Shown here: positions 4,130-30,686 of the stretch, piece after piece
Layout: each line of letters begins with the position of its first letter
Numbering within the stretch: the stretch's first letter is position 1
Source of the DNA: Hadesarchaea archaeon
GTDB taxonomy: Archaea; Hadarchaeota; Hadarchaeia; Hadarchaeales; Hadarchaeaceae
DNA: 44,321 nt
Direction: 5' to 3'
Assembly: GCA_030601675.1 (NCBI GenBank)
Contig: JAUWBN010000007.1
Span: 1-44,321 of the forward strand
Notes under the pieces: generated by a model
The model's database searches: none
The model's input: only the letters and a program-made list of their open reading frames with translations
Told to the model about the DNA's origin: nothing
Translations under genes and position numbers: made by a program

Positions 4130-5094
4130 GCGAACCCGCCGTGCCCGAGTTCGGCAATCTCCTCTCGGGTTATTTTTTCTTTTACGAGAATTCTTGGAAG
4201 GATTCGATCGAAACTCGTCCGTTTATCGGGGAGCACGCATGCTGGAAGCCCGAGAATAGGAACTCCATCTAGGTAGGCCAGCATGATCATTGCACCCGGA
4301 AAAATCGGGACACCACGGGAGACAACATCTGCTCCCGTTTTTCTTATCGCTGCGGGCGTCAAGTCTCCAGAGTCCACCGCCATGCCACCTGCGACCAAGA
4401 TGAGTTCATAACCCTTTTCCTTGAACTCGAGAATTTTTTCCTTGATTTTTTCCTCGTCATCAGGCAAAATGGTTGATTCATGAACATCGAGACCATAGTC
4501 CCCTAACTTTTCCTTCAGGACTGGAACAAATGCGTCCTTTATCCTGCCCTCGTAAACTTCAGTTCCTGTAACGATGGCCCCGACTTTTTTGATCTTCGGG
4601 GAAATCACTTGAAGCACCGGTTTGTCTTTTTCCAAAATTTCTTCCACTTTTCTCATCCGACCTTCATCAACGGTTAAGGGAACTATCTTGACAGCGCCCA
4701 CCACCGCTCCTTTTTTCACACCCGTGTTGTTCACCCGAGTGACGAAAGTGAAATCATCGATGAGGTTGATCTGCTTGATAACTTCAACCTTGACCTTCAA
4801 AAGCCCGGGCTTTTCAGCTATCAAGGTTATGCTTCCTTTGTCCGGTCCTTTGTAGGAAAGATTTTCGCCCATCGCGGCGCGAGCCATCCTTATTGCCGCT
4901 TCATCTTCATGAACTCCCTCTTCTTCCCCTCCGACGTAAACGAAGTAGTTCCCAGCATCTTTCAGTTGCTCCACATCCCCCGCCCGGACCACATGCCCTC
5001 TTTTAAAAAGGACGATTTTTATTCCGGGTCCATATCGAACGACATCGTGGGCAAGAGGTTTTCCGATAGCATCTTCTACCTTCACTTTTTTCAC
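4114..5094 (-). CDS. Molybdopterin-binding MoeA/MogA-like domain protein
   Basis: MKKVKVEDAIGKPLAHDVVRY...; VGAIVTGTEVYEGRIKDAFVPVL; ELILVAGGMAVDSGDLTPAAIRKTGA. Overlaps the mocA start. Confidence 0.8.
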   Translation of the reverse strand: MKKVKVEDAIGKPLAHDVVRYGPGIKIVLFKRGHVVRAGDVEQLKDAGNYFVYVGGEEEGVHEDEAAIRMARAAMGENLSYKGPDKGSITLIAEKPGLLKVKVEVIKQINLIDDFTFVTRVNNTGVKKGAVVGAVKIVPLTVDEGRMRKVEEILEKDKPVLQVISPKIKKVGAIVTGTEVYEGRIKDAFVPVLKEKLGDYGLDVHESTILPDDEEKIKEKILEFKEKGYELILVAGGMAVDSGDLTPAAIRKTGADVVSRGVPIFPGAMIMLAYLDGVPILGLPACVLPDKRTSFDRILPRILVKEKITREEIAELGHGGFAWLGL

Positions 5095-24608: not shown

Positions 24609-24677
24609 GCGGGTGAAGCCGCTTCTAAATACGTTTCGTGATATTTCTTTATTGGAAATATTTCCGTTAAGATAAAC

Positions 24678-24690
24678 AAATTATTTATAG
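24678..24690 (+). promoter_or_regulatory. TATA-like box of the putative ncRNA
   Basis: aaattatttatag in an AT-rich stretch about 25-35 nt upstream of the GC-rich structured region. Confidence 0.5.
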
Positions 24691-24713
24691 AAGTTCGGCT
24701 CTTAGAAGAAAGT

Positions 24714-24943
24714 GGCGGGGATGGAAGCCCGCAGAGGTGGCCAAACCGAAGCCTACGGGCAACGGGGAGCCGCGAAAAAACGTGGACGGAAAATCACGGA
24801 CGGTCGCGGATAAGTGCCTGGAAGCAGGGTACGAGGCAGCGACTGTGGGAGAAAGGCCCCAACGGGAAAAAACGGCGAGTGACGGAAGTGGTCGAAGCTC
24901 CGAAGCTCGGCGAGTGAGTAACGGACGGGCCGAAGTCCCCGCC
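24714..24943 (+). ncRNA. Putative structured non-coding RNA of unknown class (about 230 nt); strand inferred from upstream promoter-like sequence and downstream T-rich tract
   Basis: Terminal helix GGCGGGGA (24714-24721) / TCCCCGCC (24936-24943), symmetric TGGAA/CGAAG loop, then GCCCG (24727-24731) / CGGGC (24926-24930); internal hairpin CCG-AA-GCC-TACG-GGC-AA-CGG; T-rich end ccttttcgctttt. Confidence 0.6.
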
Positions 24944-25002
24944 TTTTCGCTTTTAAGGGTCAACTTTTATCTGAAAAGCAGACGATTGTTTTCACGGTGC
25001 GC

Positions 25003-27432
25003 ATGAAGGGCTTGCTGCTTGATGTGGACTACGCCGAAGAAGAAGCGCAGCCTCGCATAAGGTTGTTCCTGAAGAGCGGGGCCGAAACCGTAGTAGCCAT
25101 CGATCCGACTTTTGAGCAGTACCTCTACGCCACGACCACCAACGCTGGAAAAGCGGCGAAGCTCATCTCCAAACTCGAGCTCAGCGAGCGCGGGCGGACG
25201 ATTAAGCCGAAGTCGGTCGATATCGTCGAGCGGACTTTTCTCGGCCACGAGGTCGAAGCCGTCAAGGTGACATTTCACCACCCAAAGGATATGCCGGCCC
25301 TGAGGCACGCGATGCGCGAGCTGCCTGGGGTGAAAGAAATCTACGAGTTCGACATCCCATCTGCAAGGCGCTACTTGGTGGACCGAGGCCTCGCACCGAT
25401 GTCGGGCGTCAGCGTGAGTGGCAGAGTGGAGGAGGAAAAGGGTGTCAAAACGCTGTTGCTCGACAGCCCGCCCAAGCCAGTCGACGTGCCGGAGCAAAAG
25501 CTCAACGTGATGAGCTTCGACATCGAGGTTTACAACCCGGCAGGTACCCCCCGCCCCGACAAGGATCCGATCATCATGATGAGTTTGGCCGACAACCGAG
25601 GTTTCAAAAAAGTTATCACTTGGAAGGACTTCAAGGTGAAGCTCGATTACGTCGAGGTCGTCGGGAGCGAGCGGGAGATGCTCGAGCGGTTTGTCAAGTT
25701 GGTTGAGGAGCGGGATGTTGATATTTTACTCGGCTACAACACCGACCTCTTCGACTTCCCCTACATCCGGGAGCGGGCGAAGCAGCTGAGGATCAAGCTC
25801 AAGCTCGGGCGGGATGGTTCGGAGATGACAGTTCGCAAGCGGCGGTTCGCTACGGCCACCCGGATTCGAGGGCGGGCGCACATCGACGTTTACACGATGG
25901 TGAGCTTCCTCGCCACGATAGGGACGATAAGGCTAATCCACTACACCCTCGAGGACGTTTACCTGCATATGCTGGGGAAGGAGAAGCCAGATTTCAAGTT
26001 CACCGAGATGGCTGAGACCTGGGAGCGAGGCGGTGAACGGGCGAAGGAGCTGATTGAGTATAGTATGTCCGATTCCCAAGCGACACTCGAGTTAGGGCTC
26101 GAGTTGCTCCCGCTGTTCTTCGAGCTTACGCGGATTATCAGACAGACGCCGTTCGACGTGACACGGATGACCCCCGGGCAACTCGTGGAGTGGCTGCTCA
26201 TCGCAGATGCGCACAAGGCAGGCGAACTCGTTCCCGCCAGGCCGGTCGGCGAGGAGTACGCCGAGCGCCTTGAGGAGACATATGTCGGAGCCTACGTGAT
26301 GGAGCCAGCGAAGGGCTTGCATGAGAATTTGATTGTGTTTGACTTCCGCTCGCTTTACCCATCCATCATAGTCTCCCACAACATCGATCCTTCTGCACTC
26401 AACTGCAAGTGCTGCAAGTCAAGCGAGGCGACGACGGTGCCAGAACTCGACTATAAGTTCTGCGGGCGGCGAAAGGGCTTCATCCCCTCGACGCTCGAGC
26501 GGCTGATCGAGGCAAGGGCTAAGCTGAAGCGCGAACTGAAACAACACAAGCGCGGCACCAAAGAGTACCGCTCGCTCGATGCACAGCAGTGGGCTCTCAA
26601 GATCGTCGCGAACTCCTTCTACGGCATGCTCGGCTACCCCCGGGCGCGGTGGTACTTCAAGGAGTGCGCTGAAAGTGTCACGAGTTTCGGCCGCCACTAC
26701 ATACACAAAACAATCGATATGGCAAGGGACTTTGATTTCGATGTGATTTACTCAGACACCGATAGTTTATACTGCAAGCTCAACGGCAAGAAGCGCGAGG
26801 ACGCGATGAAGTTTCTAAAGCAGGTGAACGAGAGCTTACCCGGCATTATGGAACTCGAGTTCGAGGGCTTTTACCCCCGCGCCATTTTCGTGACGAAGAA
26901 GCGCTACGCGATGCTCGATGAGGAAGGCAGGATGGTGGTCAAGGGCTTGGAGTTTGTACGCCGCGATTGGGCCGCGCTCGCCAAGAAAACTCAAGAGGCG
27001 GTGCTTGAGGCGATCCTACGCGACGGCTCCCCCAAGAAGGCTGCCGAGATAGTGCGCAAGACGACGCAGGAGGTGCTTGAGGGGAAGGTGAGCTTGGACA
27101 ACTTAGTCATTTACACCCGGCTCAAGATGCCAATCGAGAGCTACCGTTCGATAGGTCCCCACGTGGTCGCGGCGAAGAGGCTCCGCGAGCTCGGGCGGGA
27201 GGTGGAGCCGGGGATGGTGATTGCCTACATCGAGGCCAAGGGCGCGGGGAGCATAAGCGAGCGCGCCATACCCGTCGAGGATTTCAAGGGCAGGGAGTAC
27301 GACCCCGACTACTATGTTGAGCACCAAATCCTACCCGCGGTGATGCGGATCATGGAGGTCTTGGGCTATAAACAAGAGGACCTTCGGTACGAGCGGGAGA
27401 AACAGATGGGCTTAGAGAAGTTTATGAAATGA
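25003..27432 (+). CDS. polB: Family B DNA-directed DNA polymerase
   Basis: Exo motifs SFDIEVYNP, GYNTDLFDFPYI, YSMSDSQATLEL; pol motifs DFRSLYPSII, KIVANSFYGMLGYPRARWY, YSDTDS, KKRYA. Confidence 0.95.
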   Translation: MKGLLLDVDYAEEEAQPRIRLFLKSGAETVVAIDPTFEQYLYATTTNAGKAAKLISKLELSERGRTIKPKSVDIVERTFLGHEVEAVKVTFHHPKDMPALRHAMRELPGVKEIYEFDIPSARRYLVDRGLAPMSGVSVSGRVEEEKGVKTLLLDSPPKPVDVPEQKLNVMSFDIEVYNPAGTPRPDKDPIIMMSLADNRGFKKVITWKDFKVKLDYVEVVGSEREMLERFVKLVEERDVDILLGYNTDLFDFPYIRERAKQLRIKLKLGRDGSEMTVRKRRFATATRIRGRAHIDVYTMVSFLATIGTIRLIHYTLEDVYLHMLGKEKPDFKFTEMAETWERGGERAKELIEYSMSDSQATLELGLELLPLFFELTRIIRQTPFDVTRMTPGQLVEWLLIADAHKAGELVPARPVGEEYAERLEETYVGAYVMEPAKGLHENLIVFDFRSLYPSIIVSHNIDPSALNCKCCKSSEATTVPELDYKFCGRRKGFIPSTLERLIEARAKLKRELKQHKRGTKEYRSLDAQQWALKIVANSFYGMLGYPRARWYFKECAESVTSFGRHYIHKTIDMARDFDFDVIYSDTDSLYCKLNGKKREDAMKFLKQVNESLPGIMELEFEGFYPRAIFVTKKRYAMLDEEGRMVVKGLEFVRRDWAALAKKTQEAVLEAILRDGSPKKAAEIVRKTTQEVLEGKVSLDNLVIYTRLKMPIESYRSIGPHVVAAKRLRELGREVEPGMVIAYIEAKGAGSISERAIPVEDFKGREYDPDYYVEHQILPAVMRIMEVLGYKQEDLRYEREKQMGLEKFMK

Positions 27433-27829
27433 GTAATTCACCATCCGATGTTAAAACTACATCAAAACTTTGAGTTGCCGACCGACCGTGCAGTTTATCC
27501 CCCGCCCCCTCACGGATCTTGGCTATGATGTCAGGTGTGCCTAGCTTGACTCGGATCTTTGCCGCATCCGCCGCTTTAAACAACCTCTTGGGCACCTCCA
27601 AAATGTCGTCGCCCTGCCTGACCTCGAGCACAACCGGGGCACGGAGCTTTGCGGCAAGCTTGAGCGTCCGTTCGGCTCGGGCGATGTTATCCCGCCCGCG
27701 GCGTTCGAGGATGCAAACATTCGCACGCGAGGTTTTCAACTTTCGCGCTATCTCAGCTTGGGTCAACCCCTTCACCCGGAGTCCGAGTACCCGAGCCTGC
27801 GCCTCGGTCAGGAAGGTATCCTTGGGCAT
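27422..27829 (-). CDS. Tfx family DNA-binding protein (copy 2)
   Basis: FLTEAQARVLGLRVKGLTQAEIARKLKTSRANVCILERRGRDNIARAERTLKL; same architecture as the 12489-12923 protein. Confidence 0.85.
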   Translation of the reverse strand: MPKDTFLTEAQARVLGLRVKGLTQAEIARKLKTSRANVCILERRGRDNIARAERTLKLAAKLRAPVVLEVRQGDDILEVPKRLFKAADAAKIRVKLGTPDIIAKIREGAGDKLHGRSATQSFDVVLTSDGELLIS

Positions 27830-27884
27830 AACATCAGGTTTAATTTGGACGCGGGATTAAACAACTTTTGTTCGAGGTATTTGG

Positions 27885-28778
27885 ATGTTGACCGAAGAAG
27901 AAATCGAGGCGTATCGAAGGGCGGGCAAGCTCGTGGCCGAGGTGCGCGAGCAAGTGCGCTCCATCGTGAAGCCGGGCACCACGCTGCTCGAGATAGCCGA
28001 GGTGGTCGAGGATCTAATCGCGCAGAAGGGGGGCAAGCCAGCATTCCCGTGCAACGTTTCAGTTAACGAAATCGCCGCCCACTACAGCCCCCCAGCGGAC
28101 GATGACACGAGCATCGGAGAGGGCGACATGGTCAAGGTCGACATAGGTGCCCACGTGGACGGTTACATAGGTGACACCGCGTTCACGATTGCGACGGGTG
28201 AAAAGCAAGAGCTGGTTCAAACGGTCGAGCGAGCACTTGAGGCCGAGATCGCTGCAATCAAGCCAGGAATTGACGTGGGTGAGTTAGGTAGGCTCGTCGA
28301 GGAAACTGTAACTGCGGCTGGCTTCAAGCCCATAAGAAATCTCACGGGTCACAGCCTCGCTCGCTGGAACCTCCACGCGGGGCTGACGGTGCCGAACGTG
28401 AAGGAGGAGACGGGGCAGAAGCTGAGCGTCGGCGATGTGGTGGCCCTTGAGCCCTTCGTGACCGATGGCGCCGGGTACGTCGAGGACCAAAAGAAGGTCT
28501 ACATTTTCAGGTACTTGTACGACCGCCCGGTTCGCCTGCGCATGGCCCGAGAGCTCCTGCGGGATGTCAAGCGGGCCTACGATGCCCTTCCGTTCGCTGA
28601 GCGCTGGTTGGCCAAGAAAATGTCAAAGTTGAGGCTGGAGCTGACCCTTCGTGAATTGGTAGGAGTCGGGGCGCTATGGCCTTACCATGTGCTTGCGGAG
28701 CGGGCGAAGGGCAAGGTGGCGCAGGCTGAGCATACGGTAATCGTGACCGAGCAAGGGTGCGAAGTGACAACGCGTTGA
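27885..28778 (+). CDS. map: Methionine aminopeptidase, type II
   Basis: VSVNEIAAHYSPPADDDTSIGEGDMVKVDIGAHVDGYIGDTAFTI; NLTGHSLARWNLHAG; VALEPFVTDGAGYV; EHTVIVTEQGCEVTT. Confidence 0.93.
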   Translation: MLTEEEIEAYRRAGKLVAEVREQVRSIVKPGTTLLEIAEVVEDLIAQKGGKPAFPCNVSVNEIAAHYSPPADDDTSIGEGDMVKVDIGAHVDGYIGDTAFTIATGEKQELVQTVERALEAEIAAIKPGIDVGELGRLVEETVTAAGFKPIRNLTGHSLARWNLHAGLTVPNVKEETGQKLSVGDVVALEPFVTDGAGYVEDQKKVYIFRYLYDRPVRLRMARELLRDVKRAYDALPFAERWLAKKMSKLRLELTLRELVGVGALWPYHVLAERAKGKVAQAEHTVIVTEQGCEVTTR

Positions 28779-28854
28779 AATATCGGTAGCAGGTATTGCC
28801 TAAATTTTCTGATATCCTCACAAAAAATAGCGGTGACAGGTGCCACCTTTATTT

Positions 28855-29535
28855 TCATTTGCGTAGCACGAGCATCGCGTGGTCCTTCTCGTAGGGTTCG
28901 AGGATCTTCGCATCGATTATTTCCAATTCCTTTTCTAGTTTTTCCATCTCATCCCTGAAGATTTCGCGCGGCTCCTTGGTGACATCGATGCTCCGAGCCT
29001 TGAGCACGAGCACAGCGCACCCGCCCTCGCGAAGGAACGCCTTCACGTTCGCCAGCAGGATATCCGTCTGGTCGGGCTGAGCGACATCCTGGTAGACCAC
29101 GTCCGCCTTCTCGACGAGCGCGCAATAGCTCCCCGGCTGCCGCGCGTCGGCCAGGAGGGGCACCATGTTGGGTCTACGATTGCAGACCACCAGCAGATCG
29201 CGGAGCGGGCGTGAGGAAACTTCAACGCAGTAGATCGAGCCGCTCGGCCCCACGAGATCTGCTACATGTGAAGCGGTCGTTCCACTGGCGGCACCAAGGT
29301 AGAGCACTTTTTTGCCCGAGCTTATCGGGGCCTCCTTGATACCCTTCAGGATGGCAGCCGCGAGCTTGCTTCGGTAGGGGTCCCAGAGGCGGTACTCGAC
29401 GCCCTGAACCTTGAGGAGCCGCTCGCCGTAGACTTGGGTACCCGGAGCCAAGTTTACCGTTGCAAGTTTGCGCGTCCCGTCCTCGAGCTCGACCCAGTAG
29501 ACCCCCGCGAAGCGTTCGTGTTCGGTCGCCTTCAT
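28855..29535 (-). CDS. flpA: Fibrillarin-like rRNA/tRNA 2'-O-methyltransferase
   Basis: KVLYLGAASGTTASHVADLVGPSGSIYCVEVSSRPLRDLL; NMVPLLADARQPGSYCALVEKADVVYQDVAQPDQ; LEPYEKDHAMLV. Confidence 0.95.
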   Translation of the reverse strand: MKATEHERFAGVYWVELEDGTRKLATVNLAPGTQVYGERLLKVQGVEYRLWDPYRSKLAAAILKGIKEAPISSGKKVLYLGAASGTTASHVADLVGPSGSIYCVEVSSRPLRDLLVVCNRRPNMVPLLADARQPGSYCALVEKADVVYQDVAQPDQTDILLANVKAFLREGGCAVLVLKARSIDVTKEPREIFRDEMEKLEKELEIIDAKILEPYEKDHAMLVLRK

Positions 29536-30686
29536 TTTCTCGGCTCCTTGTGTTTCGCCTTGATATCGGCTATGCGTGCCTTAAGGTAGGCGGCGAGCTT
29601 GTCCCCCACGAACTCGCCCGACATCGCGTCGACGCGCGCGGCTATTGAGAGTTTGCCTGCGAGGGCGCGGGCTATCTTCCCCCGCTGCCACCTGGGCGCC
29701 CCACGGACCTCCGGGTACTGGTAGATCACGCCGTGCTTGGGAGGCTTGGCCCGCGTCCGGAGGGATCTGAAGAGCGCCTTCTCAGCGCCCAAGACCTGCA
29801 GCGTGCTGGCTGGTTGGCGGGCGAGCTCCTCCAAACCCCCGGCGAGTGAGATCAGGCGGGCCCCGATCGGCCCACCGACGACCGCACGTAGGTTGGGAGC
29901 CACTTGGGCCATCAGCTTGTCGGTGTGCTCCGCCACCCGCTCCCGGAGCTCGTAGAGGGCGAACGCCTCGCGCGCACAATCTTGGAGCACATTGATATCC
30001 AACTCGTCGAACGGGCCCCCCAGGGAGCTTCCCGCGGCATCGGCAATGCGCGCGACGTCCTCGTCCGGTAATTCCACCGCGCCCTTCACCGCTGCATGGC
30101 TGAACTTCTCTCGTGACCCCAGCTCCGTGACCAGTTTCAGGTAGGTCTGGTGTTCCGGCACGAGTCGGTTCAGCTCTGGGAAGTGGGTGGAGTACCACTC
30201 GCGGATCAGGCCGGAGAGGATGTTTATGAATTTGTCAAGCTCATTGAGCACGCCTATGGATTGAATGACGAGCTTGTCCCGCTCGGCGGCCTCCGCTCGA
30301 AGCTTTTGCCGCGTGAGGGTGAGGTTTACCTCTCGGGCGAGCTTGTCCGCCTCCTCGAACCCCGCCTCCTTCGCTATCTCCCTGAGCTTGGTGCGCAGAA
30401 GCTCTCCGGCCCGGTTCGGTAGCTGCACCTCAAACTCGGCGCGCCGGAATTCCCCGCGCAGCTTTTCGACGAGCAGCTCCGACTCGAGGGTGAACTCTCG
30501 GGAGCCCTTCTCGACCAGTTTGGCGATGAGCTCGCGGTGCTCTTCCGTGGGGGTGCCCATCTGTATGCTCGCCAGCCGCCCGGCGACCTCTACGGCGTCC
30601 CGGGGGAACTGCTTTGAGGCGAGCATCCGCCCATCATCGTCGAACGCGAACACCCCGAGCACACATTCGGCGATATGCACGACCAT
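29532..30686 (-). CDS. Nop5/Nop56-family C/D box sRNP protein
   Basis: Nop domain VAPNLRAVVGGPIGARLISLAGGLEELARQPASTLQVLGAEKALFRSLRTRAKPPKHGVIYQYPEVRGAPRWQRGKIARALAGKLSIAARVDA; overlaps flpA. Confidence 0.95.
   Translation of the reverse strand: MVVHIAECVLGVFAFDDDGRMLASKQFPRDAVEVAGRLASIQMGTPTEEHRELIAKLVEKGSREFTLESELLVEKLRGEFRRAEFEVQLPNRAGELLRTKLREIAKEAGFEEADKLAREVNLTLTRQKLRAEAAERDKLVIQSIGVLNELDKFINILSGLIREWYSTHFPELNRLVPEHQTYLKLVTELGSREKFSHAAVKGAVELPDEDVARIADAAGSSLGGPFDELDINVLQDCAREAFALYELRERVAEHTDKLMAQVAPNLRAVVGGPIGARLISLAGGLEELARQPASTLQVLGAEKALFRSLRTRAKPPKHGVIYQYPEVRGAPRWQRGKIARALAGKLSIAARVDAMSGEFVGDKLAAYLKARIADIKAKHKEPRK

Follow-up and report, generated by a model that had tools for sequence, protein, structure and literature searches.

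Does the GC-rich segment lying upstream of the DNA polymerase gene polB in a Hadarchaeota genome encode an RNA of its own, and if so, of what kind? The window analysed (the whole 44,321-nt stretch of contig JAUWBN010000007.1, forward strand) came from a MAG of 937,688 bases (G000), 86% complete. An earlier note on this DNA had described a segment of about 230 nt there; it was located at 24712-24943, where GC content and pairing matched that description. The predicted minimum free energy of the plus strand was -100.6 kcal/mol, against -80.8 kcal/mol for dinucleotide shuffles (z = -4.1), and none of 200 shuffles was as low; the minus strand folded worse (z = -2.3). As set out below, 24712-24943 on the plus strand is a genuine gene encoding a folded noncoding RNA ~232 bases long, and its membership of a structured RNA family is next to certain. 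The gene and its neighbour are:

24712-24943, plus strand: structured noncoding RNA gene of the long (A) type, 232 nt (covariance model match of 241.5 bits, 27-sequence alignment, covariation)
24997-27432, plus strand: polB, family B DNA polymerase (PF00136, PF03104)

The long-type alignment (27 sequences) gave a consensus of 64 predicted pairs in 9 helices. Standard pairs were found in 97.8% of the cells over these 64 pairs. Compensatory changes occurred in 41 of the 64, and both-side changes in 197 cells as against 59 in shuffles; none of the three values was reached by any of 500 shuffles. When one strand was slid by 1-3 columns, pairing fell to 33-44%. In an unbiased scan of all column pairs, the top five covarying pairs all lay inside the nested structure, and no credible additional helix of the pseudoknot kind was detected. 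The fold was common to the long and short classes of the RNA, which taken together retained 48 pairs (95.2% paired, 37 with compensatory change). P1 closes the molecule and forms a three-way junction with P2 and P3; P2 leads through P2b to hairpins H1, H2 and H3, and P3 into a long 3' arm. The structural elements are:

24714-24722, plus strand: 5' strand of P1, pairing with 24935-24943 (9 pairs, 4 compensatory, 97.1% of cells paired)
24728-24734, plus strand: 5' strand of P2, pairing with 24843-24849, followed by P2b (24740-24742/24835-24837) (11 pairs, 8 compensatory)
24746-24765, plus strand: hairpin H1, CCG-AA-GCC-UACG-GGC-AA-CGG (6 pairs, 2 compensatory, 100% of cells paired)
24770-24809, plus strand: hairpin H2 (24770-24775/24804-24809; 24781-24785/24794-24798) (11 pairs, 6 compensatory, 99-100% paired)
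24814-24832, plus strand: hairpin H3 (24814-24819/24827-24832) (6 of 6 pairs with compensatory change)
24855-24931, plus strand: 3' arm (21 pairs, 15 with compensatory change), made of P3 (24855-24859/24927-24931), a short helix (24863-24864/24922-24923) and a distal helix (24873-24889/24897-24912)
24866-24920, plus strand: internal loop of GAA (24866-24868) and AGUA (24917-24920), conserved in all classes

Part of the pairing proposed in the earlier note was retained in this model. Its terminal helix GGCGGGGA/TCCCCGCC is P1 and carried compensatory changes. Its UNCG-type hairpin stood as a helix (H1), but the loop was UACG in only 16 of the 27 long-type sequences and mostly UAAG in the remainder. 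Two other helices did not survive and were replaced by P2, P3 and H2: GCCCG/CGGGC, drawn with a 5x5 GA loop, had no compensatory change in its 5 pairs and left one pair unpaired in 19 of 27 sequences, and GGTCGC/GCGACT was paired in 75.9% of cells with both-side changes no commoner than in shuffles. The GGAAG/CGAAG motif did occur seven times (at 24723, 24747, 24820, 24884, 24893, 24901 and 24931); GA internal loops as the defining feature of the RNA were not supported.

Loops of other kinds were conserved. Both the internal and the apical loop of H2 were A-rich, and the apical region of the 3' arm contained an invariant UGGUCGA (GGUCGA at 24890-24895). In 31 sequences covering all classes, AGUA was invariant and GAAA invariant or almost so. 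GAA faces AGUA beside the short helix of the 3' arm. Over all classes together this helix showed compensated variation, although within the long class the pair next to the loop covaried no more than in shuffles. We take GAA/AGUA to be the sequence of a bulged-G (loop E or sarcin-ricin type) motif, and on this basis the loop may adopt the corresponding three-dimensional arrangement.

For promoter and terminator composition, 46 copies were aligned where P1 begins. From -27 to -23 they were 98-100% A/T, against ~50% just downstream, with a box of TTTAAATA, TTTATTA or similar, and an A-rich BRE lay at -33/-32. An A/T box and BRE so placed are the expected archaeal promoter for a start at the foot of P1. 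Past the closing helix, 65-91% of copies had T at positions +2 to +10, and nearly all had a T-run. The AT-rich promoter and the 3' T-run named in the earlier note were both confirmed, and the two positions were conserved among copies:

24681-24690, plus strand: TATA box TTATTTATAG with an A-rich BRE just upstream; predicted start at ~24709-24713
24944-24957, plus strand: T-rich 3' end TTTTCGCTTTT, where transcription likely terminates

A promoter and a T-run at fixed positions match an independent transcript. The marks of an independent noncoding RNA gene, namely its own promoter, a terminator, compensatory base changes and the lack of a coding frame, were all found at 24712-24943, which very probably is an independent gene whose transcript acts in trans.

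Homologs were detected with a covariance model (R1) in 22 of 28 Hadarchaeota genomes, each with between 1 and 6 matches, a number of them partial (fragments at contig ends). By BLASTN the RNA was recovered from 22 of 41 relatives, and the many homologs in related archaeal MAGs showed strong compensatory change, including in the terminal helix. A broader model (R2) was run with stricter large-scale filters on 394 archaeal genomes, ~370 of them outside Hadarchaeota, and gave nothing convincing outside the phylum. One match there (G284) was rejected because it was weak (E = 2.5e-4) and missed the whole 5' domain. When a 30-base pattern of the H1 hairpin was searched against one genome per GTDB species (85,462), 35 stretches matched: 33 in records named Hadesarchaea, Hadarchaeum or 'Hodarchaeaceae', and one in an 'uncultured archaeon' record with a full-length model match (L052). 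A Myxococcales contig (L066) matched the pattern and was discarded, as the model did not recognise it. The same kind of scan of IMG/VR for viral copies gave none, phages contained no match and plasmids chance matches only; a mobile or viral origin was rejected on these scans.

In genus g8 (G015 and G019) no model match was obtained. Directly upstream of polB, both genomes had different GC-rich stable folds in the place of the RNA (L139, L140), with a similar closing helix (GGCGGGGAGG/CCTCCCCGCC in G015); the two sequences were not alike, and the model recognised neither. These folds may be remodelled orthologs or replacements. A separate element of ~65 nt (GGGGTGGTGCCAAGCTGGCTGGGAC...ACCAGCCACCCC) was 85-88% identical among G019, G015 and G009 (L139, L140, L150) and lay upstream of polB in G019 and G015; L139 and L140 had no Rfam match. 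One small contig, G009:C30 (L100), carried two copies of the RNA (positions 1-167 and 2083-2305): one full-length but very divergent, with a long branch, the other partial and truncated where the contig ends.

Flanking genes and the tree divided the copies into four paralog classes, and G000 accordingly has four copies. A long A copy at polB was found in the window's family; a second family has it too, in three genomes (G023, G024 and G025) where it is the only copy. Another long A copy lay beside a geranylgeranyl reductase gene, with short B in tandem ~85 nt upstream in several genomes (e.g. G000:C14), and short C was found near glutamine synthetase (e.g. G000:C3). Synteny was conserved at three loci. 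The genomic surroundings of the copies were unrelated and their orientation varied, some being convergent to the following gene; the flanking functions had no theme, and no neighbour gene was common to all loci. Differently sized paralogs in constant positions suggest either a dosage effect or versions of one particle with specialised roles. Downstream of polB, the window (27422-30686) also encoded a TFX-type regulator, an M24 peptidase and a fibrillarin and Nop5 pair.

Several other explanations of the segment were weighed. That it is a cis-acting leader of the polB mRNA, riboswitch-like or autoregulatory, is suggested by its place ~55 nt upstream of polB and co-directional with it in two families, even as the upstream neighbours change. 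The differing orientation of copies to their neighbours and the missing theme in flanking function speak against a leader: paralogs were convergent to or pointed away from other genes and so do not always lie 5' of a regulated gene, and in G003 and G005 a gene on the opposite strand separates the RNA from the next gene running its way, which in G005 is polB. Besides, the RNA ends in a T-run, and a separate promoter box precedes polB; this box persists in G021, where the RNA is absent before polB. A leader function is thus very unlikely.

24963-24972, plus strand: promoter-like box ACTTTTATCT for polB, separate from the RNA; also before polB in G021

A protein-coding gene or an inverted repeat at the DNA level is scarcely credible, even though an ORF of 89 codons (24737-25006) overlaps the RNA. 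This ORF had no Pfam match, its frame was stopped in most homologs, and no frame was open throughout, every one being stopped in some homologs. Changes preserved pairs and not codons, and the plus strand folded better than the minus; stops, missing Pfam match and pair-keeping changes together refuted a coding gene with high confidence. It is also most improbable that the RNA is a much diverged copy of a known one (RNase P, SRP, a piece of rRNA or the Hgc RNAs), which its comparable size, its multi-branch fold and short motifs recalling rRNA might suggest. Rfam 15 gave no family at gathering score in the whole window, and no tRNA was found there. Permissive scans of the whole of Rfam with this copy, a second long copy and both short classes yielded chance matches only, with best E-values of 0.69 and, on the minus strand, 0.028, all far below gathering scores. 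The RNase P and SRP identities were rejected in particular: neither RF00373 nor RF01857 matched at 24712-24943, and the canonical archaeal RNase P RNA (RF00373, 203.7 bits, G000:C1:38640-38926) and SRP RNA (RF01857, 170.8 bits, G000:C35:44386-44696) are encoded elsewhere in the genome. A guide RNA of the C/D or H/ACA kind, or a ribozyme, is distinctly unlikely. C/D machinery exists, with fibrillarin and Nop5 encoded in the window, but guide RNAs are expected to carry variable antisense parts, whereas the arms of this RNA were conserved; its complementarity to LSU rRNA had no shared site in three genomes (G003, G017 and G025), and no Rfam intron or ribozyme matched. By analogy with the ornate RNAs ROOL, GOLLD and OLE, the molecule could form an RNA-only homo-oligomer. 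Such assembly would be compatible with its large conserved fold, with A-rich loops able to make A-minor contacts, with the self-complementary UCGA of an invariant loop and with the lack of a protein neighbour common to the loci. It is unlikely nevertheless, the RNA being less than half the size of those three and without Rfam similarity, and the UCGA arm being absent in short classes B and C. The proposal of an independently transcribed, undescribed structured archaeal RNA held, by the want of an Rfam match, the compensatory changes, the absence of a conserved coding frame, and the fixed promoter and T-run.

Apart from this, LSU rRNA matches in five genomes spanned 3.6 to 4.7 kb, against a model of 3.0 kb (G024:C3, G023:C3, G025:C25, G013:C54 and G016:C52), which suggests insertions or introns.

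A further element was found upstream of the promoter:

24654-24665, plus strand: palindrome GGAAATATTTCC, a putative operator for a transcription factor, lying 47-58 nt before the RNA

Most long (A) copies had the consensus TTGGAAATATNTCCAC at about -58 to -43, and in G004 (L131, ~4953-4990) the palindrome was tandemly duplicated upstream of a long copy. The exact form GGAAATATNTCC occurred once in G000, before the RNA at 24712-24943; among 18 genomes there were 15 exact sites, 9 of which immediately preceded an RNA copy. Another exact site lay in a promoter whose gene encodes a regulator of the PadR family (PF03551). Orthologs of this gene in the same family (L180-L201) had the element at the same place, and 11 of 21 ortholog promoters scored within the top 2.6% of AT-rich background, these loci having been picked up through an operator match in the first place. 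The site before the PadR gene of G000 was weak (top 7.7% of AT-rich background), and in the second family it was absent. In G017 the PadR gene (G017:C38:10041-10358) was near phospholipid-synthesis genes (inositol-1-phosphate synthase and CDP-alcohol phosphatidyltransferase). Judged from these sites, a shared regulator of the long RNA copies and the PadR gene is plausible. It may be the PadR protein itself, because regulators of this type habitually control their own genes.

The reading we prefer is a trans-acting, stably folded noncoding RNA, most likely the RNA component of a ribonucleoprotein (probability roughly 0.6). The closing helix, the fixed ends, the invariant A-rich and bulged-G type loops and the paralogs at stable loci fit a trans-acting ribonucleoprotein scaffold best. 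Transcription would start from the BRE/TATA promoter at the foot of P1 and end at the T-run just after it, giving a closed three-way-junction particle in which P2 and the hairpins H1-H3 beyond it make up the 5' domain, while the 3' arm bears the bulged-G type loop. Docking of proteins, or tertiary contacts, would most likely take place at GAA/AGUA and at the conserved A-rich loops, so that the RNA would serve as the scaffold of the particle. A regulator that binds the GGAAATATTTCC palindrome probably switches the long copies; it may be a protein of the PadR family that acts on its own gene as well. More tentatively, and with the odds somewhat against it, the RNA may be a phylum-specific, multi-paralog particle sharing a small regulon with a PadR-type factor, in a process that has no known RNA elsewhere. 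It is uncommon to find a large, strongly conserved noncoding RNA family without a match to anything known, and where several paralogs have been retained in fixed positions throughout an archaeal order, this points to a core cellular job. With a family model, a structure, a promoter and a candidate regulator at hand, the RNA is directly testable.

A literature search that took in a minority of subscription papers found no description of a Hadesarchaea or Hadarchaeum RNA like this one. It is probably a cellular RNA without earlier description and the founding member of a Hadarchaeota family. Like the RNase P and SRP RNAs, it has a structured archaeal RNA gene of the abundant type, of similar size and with its own promoter; it differs from them in matching neither in sequence or structure, in its restriction to one phylum and in its several paralogs. 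The Hgc RNAs of Rfam (HgcC, HgcE, HgcF and HgcG) are orphan structured RNAs of hyperthermophilic archaea and are likewise lineage-restricted and GC-rich, whereas the Hadarchaeota RNA belongs to another lineage, is multi-paralog and had no Rfam match to any of them. GOLLD, ROOL and OLE are ornate large RNAs of bacteria or phages, much longer than the Hadarchaeota RNA (PMC12286853). With them it shares an elaborate conserved fold, the lack of an obvious protein neighbour and possible RNA-RNA contacts, but no homology. The family is new in that it is homologous to none described so far; as a phenomenon, orphan structured RNAs are already known. As with orphan candidates from comparative genomics (e.g. 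PMC2864571), the evidence is covariation among genome and metagenome homologs; the Hadarchaeota RNA differs in not being among the families of Rfam release 15 and in having its promoter, terminator and paralogs resolved.
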